From Gemmatimonadaceae bacterium (lineage in GTDB: Bacteria > Gemmatimonadota > Gemmatimonadetes > Gemmatimonadales > Gemmatimonadaceae), in assembly GCA_019186945.1 (NCBI GenBank), contig JABAQJ010000002.1:523897-587896 (forward strand): a stretch of 64,000 bases of DNA, in the 5' to 3' direction. The notes beneath the pieces were generated by a model. The model searched no databases. It was not told where the DNA came from and saw only the letters and a list, made by a program, of their open reading frames with translations. Positions 51,709 to 57,745 of the stretch are shown here, piece by piece. Made by a program: the position numbers and the translations under genes. Numbering within the stretch: the first letter of the stretch is position 1; the number at the start of each line of letters is the position of its first letter.

Positions 51709-52713
51709 CTAGCCTCGCCAGCGGGCGCGCGTACCGCGCGCATCTATGTGTACATACGCCGTGCCGCTGCGCGTGTACAGTCCCAGGCCCCCAACGAGGT
51801 CCGGATGCTCACGCTCGACTCGCTCGACGGCCGACGCTACCAGTCGGGCGTCAGCCGCGTTGACCCGTCCGTTCCGGTCTGCGTCCACAGTCACATCGGC
51901 GGCATCGCCATACTGATGGCGACTGTCGCTCGCCGAACGAGCCACCTGCCGGTTATGGAGGGGAGTGCGGAAGCCCGAGCGAACGTCGATGGTCGAGAGG
52001 TTCCCGTCCCGAACAGAATCCGTCAGCAAAGTGAGGGCCCGAAAAACCAGCTCGAGCTTGTCCAGGAGCCGCGGATCCAGCGCGACGTAACGGGGCCACG
52101 TCGATTGCGCGTCGTGCGATATAAAGTCGGCGAGCCGGAGGTGCTCGGTGACCTGCAGATCCAGGTCTCCCGGCATGACCTGTATGAACCCGCGCGGCGC
52201 CGCCACGCTTTCGAACGGACGGCGTTCGACACGGTACTTGCCGATACGGTACCCGTTGAGCTCCGTACCGGTCTTCGCCGAGAAGGGCACGAGCACCGCC
52301 AGGGGGACATCGTCGAAGACGCGCATGCCGCTGTCGCTCAGGACCGCCAAGCGGTAGAAACCGGGCTGCTTCGGAGCCAAGAGTGTCGACGCGAGTGACG
52401 GCGCGTCCGTGGTGCTCACCTTGCCAACGGGAAGCCAGCTGTAGCGCAGCGCGGCTGGGTCTCCGTGGACCTCCAACGGGAGGTCAACCTGCTCCCCAGG
52501 CAGTGCAAAGCGCATCGCCACGGCACCGCTGCGACCGCGGGCGTTGAGCGCCAGCCGTGCCTCGGGCGCGCGCGCGACGGTGCGGTAGCGATCGAGCCCA
52601 TCGACGGGCCTTAGAAAGAGGACGTACAAGGAAGCCAGGGTTGCAAAAACGAGGAACGAAACGCCTCGCTGACGCGTGCTCGTCGCGCGATAGCGACCCA
52701 TTCTCCTCGACAC
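51709..52713 (-). CDS. Membrane-anchored M15-type (DUF882/YcbK-like) zinc peptidase, paralogue B
   Basis: 334 residues from GTG 52713, sharing one base with the stop of paralogue A (TAGTG); ATG 52701 is an alternative. One N-terminal helix (VSFLVFATLASLYVLFL) without a clear cleavage site suggests an anchor. The C-terminal catalytic region has RSGFRTPLHNRQ, SRHQYGDAADVTVD (~260) and the last ligand in AYVHIDARG (~325), the zinc-site pattern of LAS-type peptidoglycan peptidases. Between zinc motifs lies DADRNGRVNAADA, an EF-hand/dockerin-like loop with weaker calcium ligands than in paralogue A. Peptidoglycan cutting is inferred. Confidence 0.85.
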   Translation of the reverse strand: MSRRMGRYRATSTRQRGVSFLVFATLASLYVLFLRPVDGLDRYRTVARAPEARLALNARGRSGAVAMRFALPGEQVDLPLEVHGDPAALRYSWLPVGKVSTTDAPSLASTLLAPKQPGFYRLAVLSDSGMRVFDDVPLAVLVPFSAKTGTELNGYRIGKYRVERRPFESVAAPRGFIQVMPGDLDLQVTEHLRLADFISHDAQSTWPRYVALDPRLLDKLELVFRALTLLTDSVRDGNLSTIDVRSGFRTPLHNRQVARSASDSRHQYGDAADVTVDADRNGRVNAADARLVASAVERVEREHPDLVGGLGLYTRSGTAYVHIDARGTRARWRG

Positions 52714-53627
52714 TAGCCCTGCTTCCAGCGCGCGCGGTTACCGCGTACGTCCACATGGATGAAAGGGCCATGGGAAGCGTTTGCCCGGTAGAGGCCGGCT
52801 CCACCGACCAGCTCGGGATGCTGGCGTTCCACACGCTCGACGGCTTCGATGAGCACCATGGCATCGCGCGTGTTGACTCGGCCATCGCGATTCAGATCGT
52901 CCATCCGGCCATCGCCGTTGTTGTCCACGAAGATGTCCGCGGCGTCCCCGTACTGATGCCGGGAGTCCTTGGCGCGCCCGCCTCGACGGACACCCTTCGC
53001 GTTGTACTCCGGTGTGCGGAAACCCGACAGGATGGAGAATCGTTCGGCGTTGATGCCGCGCGCGTTCAGATCGTCGAGGATCAGTTCGAGCTTGTCGATC
53101 AGCGCTTCGCGCAGAACCAGGTATTTCGGCCAGACATCGCGCTGGTTGTGCGTCAGGAAGTCGCTGAGTCGGAAGTGCTCCGACACTCTGGTCTGCTGGT
53201 TTTCCTCAGTGACCTCGATGAATCCCTCCGGATTCACGTAGGCCTCTGAGCGTGGCTGTCGGCGCTCGGCGGGCCATCGCCCCAGGCGATACGCACCGAC
53301 TCGCCCGCTCTCCTTCGAGGAAAAAGGAATGAGACGGACCAGCGAGAACGGCACCTGAGCAGCGCTGTCTTCCAGCGTATAAATCCCGGGGCGCCTTACC
53401 GCGGAATCTCCAAAAAGCCTCTGGAGAACGCCAATGGCGAGCGGGAACGAATCGCGAACGACACCCAAACGGAGCTTGCCGCTCTTCCCCCGCATGGGCT
53501 CGACGATTCTGGTCGTCGTGACGGTGCTGTCGATACTCTCGTTCTGTGCCCCCGCGGAATGCGCGGCGAGGAGGAACAAGGCCGCTACCAGCCAACGAAA
53601 GTGGGGCGAAATGAGGAGAATTGGCAT
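52713..53627 (-). CDS. Secreted M15-type (DUF882/YcbK-like) zinc peptidase with EF-hand-like insert, paralogue A
   Basis: About 304 residues from ATG 53627 (MPILLISPHFRWLVAALFLLAAHSAGAQ, a signal peptide); GTG 53666 would add 13 residues. Shares with paralogue B the middle domain (IPFSSKESGRVGAYRLGRWP, EHFRLSDFLTHNQ) and the catalytic elements SGFRTPEYNA, DSRHQYGDAADIFVD and FIHVDVRGNRARW. Between zinc motifs is DNNGDGRMDDLNRDGRVNTRDA region: two consecutive DxNxDGxxxx loops like dockerin/EF-hand calcium sites. Likely a periplasmic peptidoglycan peptidase (family knowledge plus inference). Tandem duplicate of the next gene. Confidence 0.87.
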   Translation of the reverse strand: MPILLISPHFRWLVAALFLLAAHSAGAQNESIDSTVTTTRIVEPMRGKSGKLRLGVVRDSFPLAIGVLQRLFGDSAVRRPGIYTLEDSAAQVPFSLVRLIPFSSKESGRVGAYRLGRWPAERRQPRSEAYVNPEGFIEVTEENQQTRVSEHFRLSDFLTHNQRDVWPKYLVLREALIDKLELILDDLNARGINAERFSILSGFRTPEYNAKGVRRGGRAKDSRHQYGDAADIFVDNNGDGRMDDLNRDGRVNTRDAMVLIEAVERVERQHPELVGGAGLYRANASHGPFIHVDVRGNRARWKQG

Positions 53628-53676
53628 CGGGTGGTTGGACCTGCCAGGCATGGGAATCGTTGCCACCCGACTGACG

Positions 53677-53851: not shown

Positions 53852-54706
53852 TCAGTAGATGTAGACCGGGGTGCCTACGGGCACGAGGCGGAACAGCGTC
53901 TCGATGTCCTCGTTGCGCAAGCGTACACAGCCGTGGCTCACTGAAGTGCCGATCGAGGTTGGGACGTCGGTCCCATGGAGCGCGTACCCGTCGCCGAGAT
54001 TCAGGCGGTGCGTACCAACGACGCCAGCAAAGCGCCGTTGGTTGGTGCCAATAGGCGGAACGATGACCTTCCCGTCGATGATCAGCTCGCGTCCTTCGCC
54101 ACCCTCCAGCACGGCTTCGCGCCCGTCCGGATAGCGCCGTACGATCTCGGCTCCAGCTACGGCGATGACCGAACTGTCCGACAGGAGGAGGGGAGAGTTA
54201 CGGTCGATCTGTTGCATCCGGACCTTCTTCTTGTGCGCGACCTCGACGTAGTGCCAGTCGGGCGGAACCCAGGCAGGATCGCTTTCCTTGTTGAGCACGA
54301 CGAGTCGGCCTCGAGGCGTCTCGAACTTCCATTTCCGGCGTCCGGTTTGCGAGAGGATCCGGCCGCTGCCCGTGGCGACGCGAGTCGCGAAGATCGTCGT
54401 CTCCTTCTGCTTGAGCCACAGCCTGTGGTCGGCGATGGAGACGACGATGTAGGGACGATCTCCGATCGAGTCGATCGGTGCGGACACGGCAGCCTCCAGC
54501 GAGTCACCGCTTTCGTCCGCCCGCAGCCTGGCCTCTGCGAGCAGCCGCTGACTTTCGTCGTGGATTTGGCGCGTGAGATCTCGCTCACGTCGGCTCGTCG
54601 CCAGTTGCGACGCGAGCAACCCGGTCACGATACCGAGCGTCAGCGCGAATGACACCAGCGGCGTGCCCCCGGCCCGCAGGAAGTTGCCGACTCTTCCGAT
54701 CAGCAC
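53852..54706 (-). CDS. L,D-transpeptidase (YkuD domain), membrane anchored
   Basis: Forms 3-3 cross-links or attaches proteins to peptidoglycan. 284 residues from GTG 54706, with GGGAGG upstream. N-terminal helix (TPLVSFALTLGIVTGLLAS), a coiled-coil-like stretch (~45-75), then the YkuD domain from ~90: YIVVSIADHRLWLKQ, VGTHRLNLGDGYALHGTD (His) and the catalytic SHGCVRLRNEDIETLF (Cys ~255), so it should be active. Ends VPVGTPVYIY. Lies 12 bases after its Cys-less paralogue. Confidence 0.93.
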   Translation of the reverse strand: MLIGRVGNFLRAGGTPLVSFALTLGIVTGLLASQLATSRRERDLTRQIHDESQRLLAEARLRADESGDSLEAAVSAPIDSIGDRPYIVVSIADHRLWLKQKETTIFATRVATGSGRILSQTGRRKWKFETPRGRLVVLNKESDPAWVPPDWHYVEVAHKKKVRMQQIDRNSPLLLSDSSVIAVAGAEIVRRYPDGREAVLEGGEGRELIIDGKVIVPPIGTNQRRFAGVVGTHRLNLGDGYALHGTDVPTSIGTSVSHGCVRLRNEDIETLFRLVPVGTPVYIY

Positions 54707-54718
54707 CGCCGCCTCCCG

Positions 54719-55411
54719 TCAGTCGAACACATAAACAGTCATCCCGGGCATGATGTTCGGCGCGATCGCACGCAGGTCGTCCCCACGAACGAGGACCGCG
54801 CCTTCGAGCACATAGGAAGAGTCGGACAGTGGACCGTCCTTCGGCAACGCGTAGATGACTGTGCCTCCGTCGAGAACGAATGCCACCTTCCCCAGGGCGC
54901 CTTTCACCCGTCGGTCCTGGGGGACTGGAAGGTCGCGGTCGAGATATACCCGTTCCGGTACGTCCCAAAGGGCGCCGCCATCGAGGACCGTTCCGATCGT
55001 CCGTGCACCGCTCGCCAGGCCGACGCGGGCCGAGTCCGACGAACCGCCTGCCACTCCGATCGTTACCGGCATGCTGCGCAAGGTGATGCCATCGCGTTGC
55101 AGCAGCATTCGCGCGCTATCCACGTCGAGTGTCAGGTGCAACTCACGATCGGCCGCTGCCTGTCGACGCACGAGTTCCGCAACCGTCGTAGCGCGGTTCC
55201 GTTCCGACGTGATCGCGAGATCGATCCGGGCTCGCTCGGCGTCCGACATCTGCTCGCGCAGGTGCGCCGTCTCGCTGTGCAAGCGCCAGACGCGCGCAGC
55301 CATCGCGATATCCGTGAGAAGCAGGATGACGATGGCCGCGGCTATCGAGGCGATCGCACGCGGATACGCAGCACGCAAGGCGCGCGCGCGATCGAGGAAG
55401 GAATGCGTCAC
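54719..55411 (-). CDS. Degenerate L,D-transpeptidase paralogue lacking the catalytic Cys and His
   Basis: 230 residues from GTG 55411. Same layout as the next gene: N-terminal helix (AIASIAAAIVILLLTDIAMAA), coiled coil (~45-75), then LHLTLDVDSARMLLQRDGITLRSMPVTIGVAGG (in two parts) aligning with the YkuD start. In the catalytic region ALHGTD of the active copy aligns with ALPKDG, and SHGCVRLRNEDI aligns with LEGAVLVRGDDL, so His and Cys are gone; the end MPGMTVYVF matches VPVGTPVYIY. Probably a pseudoenzyme that binds peptidoglycan or its sister protein (inference). Alignment was by eye. Confidence 0.78.
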   Translation of the reverse strand: MTHSFLDRARALRAAYPRAIASIAAAIVILLLTDIAMAARVWRLHSETAHLREQMSDAERARIDLAITSERNRATTVAELVRRQAAADRELHLTLDVDSARMLLQRDGITLRSMPVTIGVAGGSSDSARVGLASGARTIGTVLDGGALWDVPERVYLDRDLPVPQDRRVKGALGKVAFVLDGGTVIYALPKDGPLSDSSYVLEGAVLVRGDDLRAIAPNIMPGMTVYVFD

Positions 55412-55455
55412 TGGGGCGACTGCGTGCTGGTTGGAGGAAACGCCGCCCGATACAT

Positions 55456-55485
55456 TCCACAGCCGTTCATCGCACTGAGTATATC
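55456..55485 (+). promoter_or_regulatory. Possible promoter for gpmI
   Basis: TCCACA (55456-55461) and TATATC (55480-55485) spaced by 18 bases, with the -10 box 22 bases before the gpmI ATG. The region is the 96-base divergent gap between the Cys-less transpeptidase gene and gpmI, and TATATC is one of few A+T-rich hexamers in it. Confidence 0.4.
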
Positions 55486-55507
55486 ATTCACGCGCAGCCA
55501 GGCCAAC

Positions 55508-57049
55508 ATGGGGAAGCGCAGACCCGTCGTTCTGGTCGTAATCGATGGATTCGGATATCGGGAAGAGCGGGAGGGAAACGCGGCGCGCCTTGCGCGGATG
55601 CCGACGTGGAACCGGCTCTGGGAGCGAGCTCCGCACACCTTGCTCGAGGCATCGGGACGCCGAGTGGGCCTGCCTGAGGGTCAGATGGGAAATTCGGAAG
55701 TCGGCCACCTGAACCTCGGGGCCGGCCGCGTGGTCAAGCAGGATCTGGTACGTATCGCCGAGTCGATCGAGGATGGGTCGTTCTTCCGCAAACCGGCATT
55801 CGTGACTGCCTGCGAGCAGGCGGTGCGTTCGGGGGGGACTTTGCACCTGCTGGGACTTCTTGGCGACGGCGGCGTGCACGCGTTGAGCGATCACCTGGTT
55901 GCGCTGATCGATCTGGCGGAACGCCAGCGGGTGCCGCGCGTGGCAATCCATGCCCTGCTCGACGGGCGGGATACCATGCCGACGTCTTCGTTAGGTTTCA
56001 TGGAGGCGTTGCTGGCGCGCTCGAGAGGCCGGGCGTTCGTCGCCAGCCTTGGCGGGCGGTACTTCGGGATGGATCGCGACAAGCGCTGGGATCGGGTGAG
56101 GAAATGGTACGACGCGGCAGTGCTCGGAACCGGCCTGCGTGCCGCCGAACCGCTCCAGGCGATCCGCGATGCATACGCCCGCGGCGAGTCGGACGAGTTC
56201 ATCACGCCGGTCACGATCGTGAAGGACGAGGGTGCCGTTGCTCCGATGCGAGATGGCGATGCAGTGATCTGCTTCAACTTCCGGTCCGACCGGATGCGAC
56301 AGATCTGCCGGGCGCTTGCCGATCCAGGATTCGACGGTTTCGATGTCGGCAGCCGACCGCGCGTGGCGATTTCGACCATGACGTCCTACGACGAGACGTT
56401 CTCCTTCCCGGTTGCGTTCGCCCCGTTCTCGATGGCGCGCATCGTGGCCGAAGTCGTGTCGGGGGCCGGCATGACCATGTTCCGGACGGCGGAAACGGAG
56501 AAGTATCCGCATGTGACATATTTCTTCAACGGCGGGATCGAGATCCCGTTCGCTGGAGAGGAACGACTTCTGGTGCCCAGCCCGAAGGTTCCGACATACG
56601 ATCTGCAGCCGGAAATGTCCGCCGTGGGCGTGACCGATGTGCTGTGCACTGCGATCGAGAGTCGGGACTTCGACTTTACGTTGTGCAACTATGCCAACTG
56701 CGACATGGTGGGCCACACGGGTGTGCTGCCGGCCGTGATCGCGGCATGCGAGACAGTCGACGCATGCCTTGCCCGTGTCGTTGCGTCCGCGGAGAAGTCG
56801 GGAGCACACGTAATGCTGACCGCGGATCATGGGAATTGCGAACTGATGATCGACGAGGAGACCGGTGGACCGCATACGGCACACACGACCAATCCGGTAC
56901 CTTTCGTTCTGCTGGACCGGGACGGGGACCGCGCGCTGCGCTCGGGCGGCGCGCTGTGCGACGTCGGCCCCACGATCCTCAGCATGCTCGGGATCGCGCA
57001 GCCCGATGAGATGACTGGCCGAGATCTGCGCCTGACCACAACCGAGTAG
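55508..57049 (+). CDS. gpmI: 2,3-bisphosphoglycerate-independent phosphoglycerate mutase
   Basis: Interconverts 3- and 2-phosphoglycerate in glycolysis using two manganese ions. 513 residues from ATG 55508 (MGKRRPVVLVVIDGFGYREE), standard length. Nucleophilic Ser (~63) in QMGNSEVGHLNLGAGR; HALLDGRDTMPTSSLGF; NFRSDRMRQI; ETEKYPHVTYFFNGG; NYANCDMVGHTG; TADHGNCE and HTAHTTNPVPF complete the metal sites. The frame is open upstream to 55097, but that part overlaps the divergent gene and is not protein-like. First of a long + strand run to 63554. Confidence 0.97.
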   Translation: MGKRRPVVLVVIDGFGYREEREGNAARLARMPTWNRLWERAPHTLLEASGRRVGLPEGQMGNSEVGHLNLGAGRVVKQDLVRIAESIEDGSFFRKPAFVTACEQAVRSGGTLHLLGLLGDGGVHALSDHLVALIDLAERQRVPRVAIHALLDGRDTMPTSSLGFMEALLARSRGRAFVASLGGRYFGMDRDKRWDRVRKWYDAAVLGTGLRAAEPLQAIRDAYARGESDEFITPVTIVKDEGAVAPMRDGDAVICFNFRSDRMRQICRALADPGFDGFDVGSRPRVAISTMTSYDETFSFPVAFAPFSMARIVAEVVSGAGMTMFRTAETEKYPHVTYFFNGGIEIPFAGEERLLVPSPKVPTYDLQPEMSAVGVTDVLCTAIESRDFDFTLCNYANCDMVGHTGVLPAVIAACETVDACLARVVASAEKSGAHVMLTADHGNCELMIDEETGGPHTAHTTNPVPFVLLDRDGDRALRSGGALCDVGPTILSMLGIAQPDEMTGRDLRLTTTE

Positions 57050-57055
57050 AATCCG

Positions 57056-57745
57056 GTGCGACTGCTGTCTGTTGCTGCTGTCTTTGCCGTGTGTGCGCCA
57101 CCAGCGTGGGCACAGATCGGCACTCTCCCCGACCGAAGTCCGTATCGCGACATCGAGTTCCGGCAGGAGTGGACGACGTTTGCCGGGCAGTTCAACGCCC
57201 GCAGCGATCCGGCGCACGTGGCCCCGCGTGGCGGCCTGTTCATCGGAGAGCGGTGGGCAATCAAGCTGGGCGGGCCAATGTACTTCACGGCCAGGATCGC
57301 CGGATCCATGCAGGAACGCACGATCGTCAACCCGCGACTTGCAGAGCCGGCTCGCAGCCGCCGGTCGGAGCGATTGCCGATCCTCTATACGGACATGGGA
57401 TTGGAGTTGCAGCTGACAGGCTCCAAGACCTGGCGATCGATCGCACCGGTCGTCAACGGCGGCATCGGGATGACGGCTGATCTCAAGTCCAAGCGCGATG
57501 TCGGCGGTTTCAAGTTCGGCCAGCCATTTACACTCACATTCGGTGCGGCGATCAAGTACATCCCGGCGCGCGGCCCGAATGTCCGGTTCGACTGGTCCAG
57601 CTACGTGTATCGGATCCACTATCCGGAATCGTACTTCCTGAAGTCCGGGGATGCCCCGATCGTGCTGCCGGCGAGCGTCAAGAAGGATCTCTGGCGCCGG
57701 AACAACGTGCTCACCGTCGGCTTGACGGTCATGAACTTCCGTTAG
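57056..57745 (+). CDS. Exported protein, probably outer-membrane, function unknown
   Basis: 229 residues from GTG 57056, six bases after gpmI. Signal peptide MRLLSVAAVFAVCAPPAWAQ. The mature chain has alternating patterns (WAIKLGGPMYFTARIAGS, FTLTFGAAIKYIPARG, LTVGLTVMNF) consistent with a small beta-barrel, and ends NFR rather than a clear C-terminal Phe signal. No named family recognised. The TAG stop lies in the octamer CGTTAGGC. Confidence 0.65.
   Translation: MRLLSVAAVFAVCAPPAWAQIGTLPDRSPYRDIEFRQEWTTFAGQFNARSDPAHVAPRGGLFIGERWAIKLGGPMYFTARIAGSMQERTIVNPRLAEPARSRRSERLPILYTDMGLELQLTGSKTWRSIAPVVNGGIGMTADLKSKRDVGGFKFGQPFTLTFGAAIKYIPARGPNVRFDWSSYVYRIHYPESYFLKSGDAPIVLPASVKKDLWRRNNVLTVGLTVMNFR

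Follow-up and report, generated by a model that had tools for sequence, protein, structure and literature searches.

L,D-Transpeptidases can bypass the classical beta-lactam targets. To our knowledge, little is known about dedicated proteins that switch these enzymes on, and it is our impression that the wall biology of Gemmatimonadota has been little studied. The catalytic triad of L,D-transpeptidases is described as Cys-His-small residue, and E. coli living on 3-3 links requires an L,D-endopeptidase activity, which MepK can supply (PMC12729407). Domains of the YkuD type that lack the catalytic Cys are exemplified by LdtPae1 of P. aeruginosa, whose second YkuD domain carries QLGKIR in place of SHGCIR and is described as being of unknown role (PMC10434034). 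Outside this fold, inactive LytM members are reported to regulate wall hydrolases (PMC8416486; PMC8360153). A free-standing, conserved pseudo-transpeptidase gene linked to an active one was not found in the literature searched.

Here we describe a gene of this kind from a Gemmatimonadaceae genome. It is located in a stretch of 64,000 nucleotides, referred to as the window, for which a first-pass annotation had proposed a YkuD pseudoenzyme devoid of Cys, conserved in frame beside an active copy. We denote its product the pseudo protein. Unless stated otherwise, counts over copies of this protein refer to the 50 family loci that were read, the window included; one of them (L030) runs into a contig end.

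The gene pair and its surroundings

The features of the locus are collected in Table 1. In agreement with the first-pass annotation, the reading frame of the pseudo gene is intact: It is open from GTG to stop, and the encoded protein of 230 aa contains zero cysteines. An N-terminal membrane helix (residues ~19-40) is followed by a helical stalk reaching to ~87 and by the Cys-less YkuD domain (~88-230). The AF2 models of both the pseudo protein and the active neighbour start with a membrane helix that continues into a long helix, and the long helical stalk of the two proteins is presumed to form a coiled coil. Hydropathy reveals a clear membrane segment near the N-terminus in 43/50 pseudo copies and in 46/49 active partners. 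Conserved residues of the helix and stalk are D34 (43/50), E47 (48/50) and R52 (49/50) in the pseudo protein, and R42 (43/49), D43 (43/49) and R46 (48/49) in the active partner. The near-invariant Asp D34 lies inside the predicted membrane helix, which is unusual for a plain anchor.

The active gene is located downstream on the same strand, separated from the pseudo gene by 12 bp. Its product, correctly called an active YkuD copy by the first-pass annotation, is the only PF03734 match in the 3.95 Mb genome (whole-genome search, E 0.001). Two genes for M15-type peptidases follow. Their products reach the Pfam cut-off for Peptidase_M15_2 and score 25.1 and 22.9 bits against the MepK model NF053624, under its cut-off of 185 bits. 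Beside the peptidase motif, each of these tandem peptidases contains a stretch similar to a dockerin calcium-binding repeat (Dockerin_1, sub-threshold matches with E 0.00019 and 0.15).

Upstream, the promoter of the YkuD pair is presumably situated in the gap to the divergent gene, which we take from its sequence to be the phosphoglycerate mutase gene gpmI. A contig scan with 11 close relatives as query returned 23 loci whose titles all name Gemmatimonadetes, Gemmatimonadaceae (as MAGs), Gemmatimonas sp. or Roseisolibacter sp., a set that overlaps with the family genomes; one other contig scan for relatives of the pseudo protein gave no match. Among these 23 loci, 17 show an M15 gene following the YkuD pair, and the nearer peptidase of the window is perhaps part of the same pathway. 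The gene after gpmI (57056-57745(+)), whose product has no NCBIfam match, occurs in 21 of them. The YkuD pair is present in the culturable relative Roseisolibacter sp. H3M3-2 (L118).

Table 1. Coordinates of the pseudo gene, its lost catalytic sites and the adjoining features in the window.
Feature	Position	Strand	Basis
Pseudo-L,D-transpeptidase	54719..55411	(-)	ORF; AF2 model; VIA-align Z 13.8 to 1y7m; hydropathy
Lost catalytic His site, residues 187-193, YALPKDG	54833..54853	(-)	Alignments; coordinates from reading frame
Lost catalytic loop site, residues 202-213, LEGAVLVRGDDL (neighbour SHGCVRLRNEDI)	54773..54808	(-)	Alignments; coordinates from reading frame
Active L,D-transpeptidase (YkuD), same architecture plus a long insert	53852..54706	(-)	Pfam PF03734 90.3 bits, E 2.3e-25
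M15-type peptidase, downstream neighbour	52713..53666	(-)	Only NCBIfam match MepK, below cut-off
Further M15-type peptidase of that family	51709..52713	(-)	Only NCBIfam match MepK, below cut-off
96-bp gap to divergent gene 55508-57049(+)	55412..55507	.	ORF listing

YkuD fold and lost catalytic residues

Single-sequence scans give little indication of the nature of the pseudo protein. The window copy has no YkuD match in Pfam at E up to 5, stays below the PF03734 gathering score of 23.4 bits and receives no NCBIfam name, and weak YkuD matches appear in 10 of 39 pseudo copies, with a best E of 0.011. When the alignment of these 39 copies was compared with that of 48 neighbours by hhalign, the whole proteins matched with E 2.9e-11 over 215 columns. 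The YkuD domain alone yielded E 1.2e-8, to be compared with E 0.031-0.66 for eight column-shuffled controls and 0.079 for one reversed control, and helix plus stalk alone matched between the two families with E 1e-4 (four shuffled controls, 0.13-0.52).

The AF2 model of the pseudo protein (pLDDT 90.7, pTM 0.69) has B. subtilis YkuD (1y7m) as its top structural match, with Z 13.8 over 108 residues at 2.5 A; the model of the active neighbour reaches Z 19.8 against the same structure. Among the best 50 structural matches listed, 49 are by title L,D-transpeptidases, YkuD, Csd6, Pgp2, Bd1075 or an E. faecium peptidoglycan binding protein, the sole exception being 4xxt, titled a fused amidase/peptidase. 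Since the profile comparison stands above its controls and the fold comparison points to the same proteins, we place the pseudo protein in YkuD, as the first-pass annotation had done; profile and predicted structure together establish a YkuD beta-sandwich fold. Chance similarity and an unrelated fold are ruled out by the profile controls and the fold comparison.

The active family retains H244, G245, S257, H258, G259, C260 and R262 in 48 of 49 homologues, the remaining one being cut by a contig end. From the known HG. and SHGC motifs, we take His244 and Cys260 to be the catalytic pair of the neighbour. For the His site, the first-pass annotation had set ALPKDG of the pseudo protein (residues 188-193) against ALHGTD, which the neighbour has near there. 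The missing His stands, as the catalytic His (HG.) is absent from the window copy under either of two alignments, whereas the pairing of ALH with ALP belongs to one of them only: His244 faces Tyr187 in the ungapped multiple alignment and Pro190 in the hhalign alignment, which has a 3-residue gap just before. Position 187 is Tyr in 46/50 family copies and in 27/27 tree rows. In the gapped alignment, the place of His244 is taken by Pro in 40/50 copies and by His solely in L041. Any His within residues 183-195 is confined to L007, L041 and L042 (3/50), and none is found at place 187.

The place of Cys260 is occupied by Ser in 26/50, by Ala in 17/50 (window copy included) and by other residues in 7/50 copies, and by Cys in none. 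The motif (S/T)xGCh(R/N) with the catalytic Cys is found in 0/50 family copies and in 0/6 copies of a second family, f6, such that no relative read retains the Cys. Gly259 is retained in 50/50 copies, the place of His258 is Pro in 43/50 and Glu in the window copy, and the Arg of the catalytic motif is kept in 46/50, with Leu in the window copy. All six copies of the second family reveal the pattern of the window's family, with Tyr opposite His244, Pro opposite His258, and Ala, Ser or Gly opposite Cys260.

In place of the catalytic motif, the pseudo family has a motif of its own, Y..P..GPL.DS.YV.PG(S/A)(V/I)R. Full-length copies carry Y187, G193, L195, G204 and D212 in 40/40 and P203 and R207 in 39/40 cases. 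The C-terminal pattern (M/V)PxGxxVYxF/Y, which the first-pass annotation had assigned to both proteins, fits only the neighbour (PVGTPVYIY); the pseudo protein reads MPGMTVYVF, and the part common to both is G..VY.(F/Y).

Some copies deviate from the full-length form. Three family copies (L042-L044) are very divergent, and in seven (L045-L051) the middle of the YkuD domain is gone while helix, stalk and tail are retained. Loss of the central YkuD strands with the membrane helix, stalk and C-terminal tail kept is also seen in L091, L092, L094, L143 and L148, so that such copies are spread over several genera.

Distribution, linkage and ancestry

A protein search finds the pseudo protein in 65 of the 99 genomes available for the window's family. 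In a profile search, 146 of 395 phylum genomes match at E 0.001. Weak profile matches outside the family are, judged from their sequences, probably cross-matches to ordinary YkuD proteins: In 15/15 of such loci fetched, the matching frame scores better with the active profile, and 14/14 of those aligned carry the catalytic His and Cys. Full-length matches were obtained in 12 genomes of the second family of the class, f6. At each of the six f6 loci read, an active YkuD gene immediately follows the pseudo gene, and neither gpmI nor an M15 gene was detected within 5-6 kb around the pair. At 12 loci read from the families f5, f7 and f8, likewise of this class, active YkuD proteins occur with no pseudo partner adjoining. 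Thus, the YkuD fold does not generally need a partner. At two f5 loci (L076:756-1973(+) and L088:3151-4611(-)), the insert-less active protein is adjoined by another YkuD-like protein, which carries the motif WT(D/N)GC(I/V)AVTN.

Conservation beside the active copy turned out to be stronger than the first-pass annotation had claimed. The pseudo gene is located upstream of, on the same strand as and adjacent to the active gene in 49/49 family loci where both are visible. Gaps between the two range from -4 to +274 bp and are <=50 bp in 41/49 cases, with 14 pairs of overlapping frames (start codons assigned by a simple rule), and no fusion of the two genes was seen among the loci read.

Co-occurrence reveals the same picture. 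Among 94 family genomes with a close active orthologue (E < 1e-84), 90 have a pseudo profile match, with E <= 3.5e-14 in 86 of these. When the four weak matches (G086, G227, G245 and G398) were read, they proved to be shortened copies; the G398 copy runs into a contig end. As to the four genomes without a match, G048 and G217 hold a shortened copy, the contig of G032 ends within the locus, and G279 revealed no intact pseudo copy. Conversely, six genomes have a pseudo match and no close active orthologue; five of these matches are weak (E 1e-5 to 1e-4) and probably cross-matches to other YkuD proteins, and in the sixth, G378, the gene runs off the contig.

A tree was built from 76 YkuD domains over 150 retained columns. 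The 27 pseudo copies included in it form one clade (100/100), of which the two families are the two halves. Instead of joining the present neighbours, this clade falls with L,D-transpeptidases devoid of the long insert (95/96). A tree constrained to make it the sister of the neighbours is worse by 26 log units but is not rejected (p-AU 0.103); an origin of the pseudo gene by tandem duplication of the present neighbour thus appears disfavoured only in part. The long branch of the clade makes its position among the insert-less enzymes uncertain. On an evolutionary scale, the catalytic loss has one ancient origin, older than the split of the two families.

For 30 close pairs of pseudo genes, dN/dS lies between 0.05 and 0.39 with a median of 0.167 (YkuD domain, 0.141), and 27 pairs of active partners give 0.134; these are rough values, as some dS exceed 1 and pairs share species. 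All pairs are from relatives outside the window's genus. Since the loss of Cys is universal in the copies read, the copies form a single clade and dN/dS is low, the pseudo gene is an old, maintained pseudoenzyme under purifying selection. The view of the first-pass annotation that it is maintained rather than decaying is hereby supported.

Proposed role and relation to known systems

We consider it rather probable that the pseudo protein is anchored in the inner membrane and, having no catalysis of its own, serves as a dedicated partner to the L,D-transpeptidase of the next gene downstream. This reading is suggested by a fold without its chemistry, a close and ancient linkage to a single enzyme, and conserved residues in helix and stalk of both proteins, and further by the fact that the pair persists in f6, where neither gpmI nor an M15 gene was found around it. 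Both proteins would be neighbours in the inner membrane and pair via their helices and stalks, and the dead YkuD domain may activate, position or stabilise the live enzyme on peptidoglycan, in the way that degenerate LytM factors control amidases. That the partner activates the transpeptidase, rather than inhibiting or merely anchoring it, would be a guess by analogy. A protein contact is favoured over a ligand pocket, because in 7/50 copies the central part of the domain has disappeared, whereas helix, stalk and tail persist.

Co-evolution of the two proteins was addressed by distance correlation. Given gpmI, the partial correlation with the pseudo protein is 0.45 for the active enzyme and 0.69 for the protein of the unrelated neighbour 57056-57745(+); the measure is not specific to the partner and gives co-evolution no support. 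Linkage and co-occurrence could also result from shared expression without contact.

More tentatively, and with somewhat less than even confidence, we propose an obligate two-protein L,D-transpeptidase in Gemmatimonadaceae and the second family, in which the enzyme would work only with its membrane-bound dead YkuD partner, paired via helix and stalk and gating the access to peptidoglycan. If true, this would be the first genetically encoded L,D-transpeptidase activator of the enzyme's own fold, as far as the literature searched shows. The adjoining M15 peptidases would suit a module in which 3-3 cross-links are both formed and cleaved.

Several other roles have to be weighed against a dedicated partner. 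The strongest competitor, to which we assign a clearly smaller share of belief, is a peptidoglycan-binding module: The dead YkuD domain would bind stem peptides or cross-links and tether the envelope or sense the wall, without directly regulating its neighbour. The rebuilt loop is as strongly conserved as expected of a binding site, with five residues invariant in all full-length copies, and the authors of the LdtPae1 study speculate on peptidoglycan binding for the Cys-less second domain (PMC10434034). However, an intact pocket is not needed everywhere, as seven copies are without the domain core and shortened copies also occur in genus g23, and a general wall binder would not be expected to adjoin one enzyme so strictly.

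It is unlikely that the pseudo protein assists not the transpeptidase but the downstream M15 peptidases, or an entire module of cross-link turnover. Such a role would agree with the frequent M15 gene behind the pair and with MepK as the only NCBIfam match of both peptidases, albeit below the cut-off, but four of the 23 contig-scan loci with room for it (L102, L120-L122) keep the pair with no M15 gene detected, as do the six loci of the second family.

Marginally less credible again is a protein that is still an enzyme with a rebuilt site, based on Ser at the Cys position or on the conserved Tyr, Asp and Arg of the new loop. The frequency of that Ser (26/50) and of Tyr187 (46/50), which the ungapped alignment pairs with the catalytic His, would suit it; on the other hand, Ala at the Cys position in 17/50 copies, including the window's, rules out a serine enzyme, no His is kept at the catalytic place, with any His nearby in just three copies, and seven copies have deleted the domain core.

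A decaying paralogue retained by linkage alone, to which the shortened or very divergent copies of several genera (L042-L051, L091, L092, L094, L143, L148) and one genome without an intact copy (L144) might point, is highly improbable and regarded as ruled out by dN/dS and conservation, given the intact frames, the low values in all 30 close pairs, the motif of its own and an inactivation that predates the split of the two families.

A dedicated partner of the downstream transpeptidase thus remains the preferred reading. A conserved dead partner, present as one gene pair in many genomes, offers a natural handle on protein activators of L,D-transpeptidases, and the pseudo family itself escapes both Pfam and NCBIfam when single sequences are scanned. 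A possible likeness in the way of working exists to the degenerate LytM factors, such as EnvC, as inactive relatives of wall enzymes that regulate wall hydrolases. Their fold and their target enzymes are unrelated to those of the YkuD pair.

With the YkuD L,D-transpeptidases (B. subtilis YkuD, LdtMt2 and others), the pseudo protein has the fold and a residual profile similarity in common; it differs from them in the absence of the catalytic His and of the (S/T)xGCh(R/N) motif. DpaA of E. coli, formerly LdtF/YafK, is likewise a YkuD member that is not a transpeptidase, but it is described as an amidase with an active-site Cys (PMC8263019). LdtPae1 resembles the gene pair in that a Cys-less YkuD domain stands beside an active one; there, however, both domains reside in one polypeptide, an architecture that its authors had detected in no other LDT (PMC10434034). 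In contrast, the pseudo gene specifies a separate, membrane-anchored product, is encoded upstream of its active counterpart, and is conserved across one family and present in a second.
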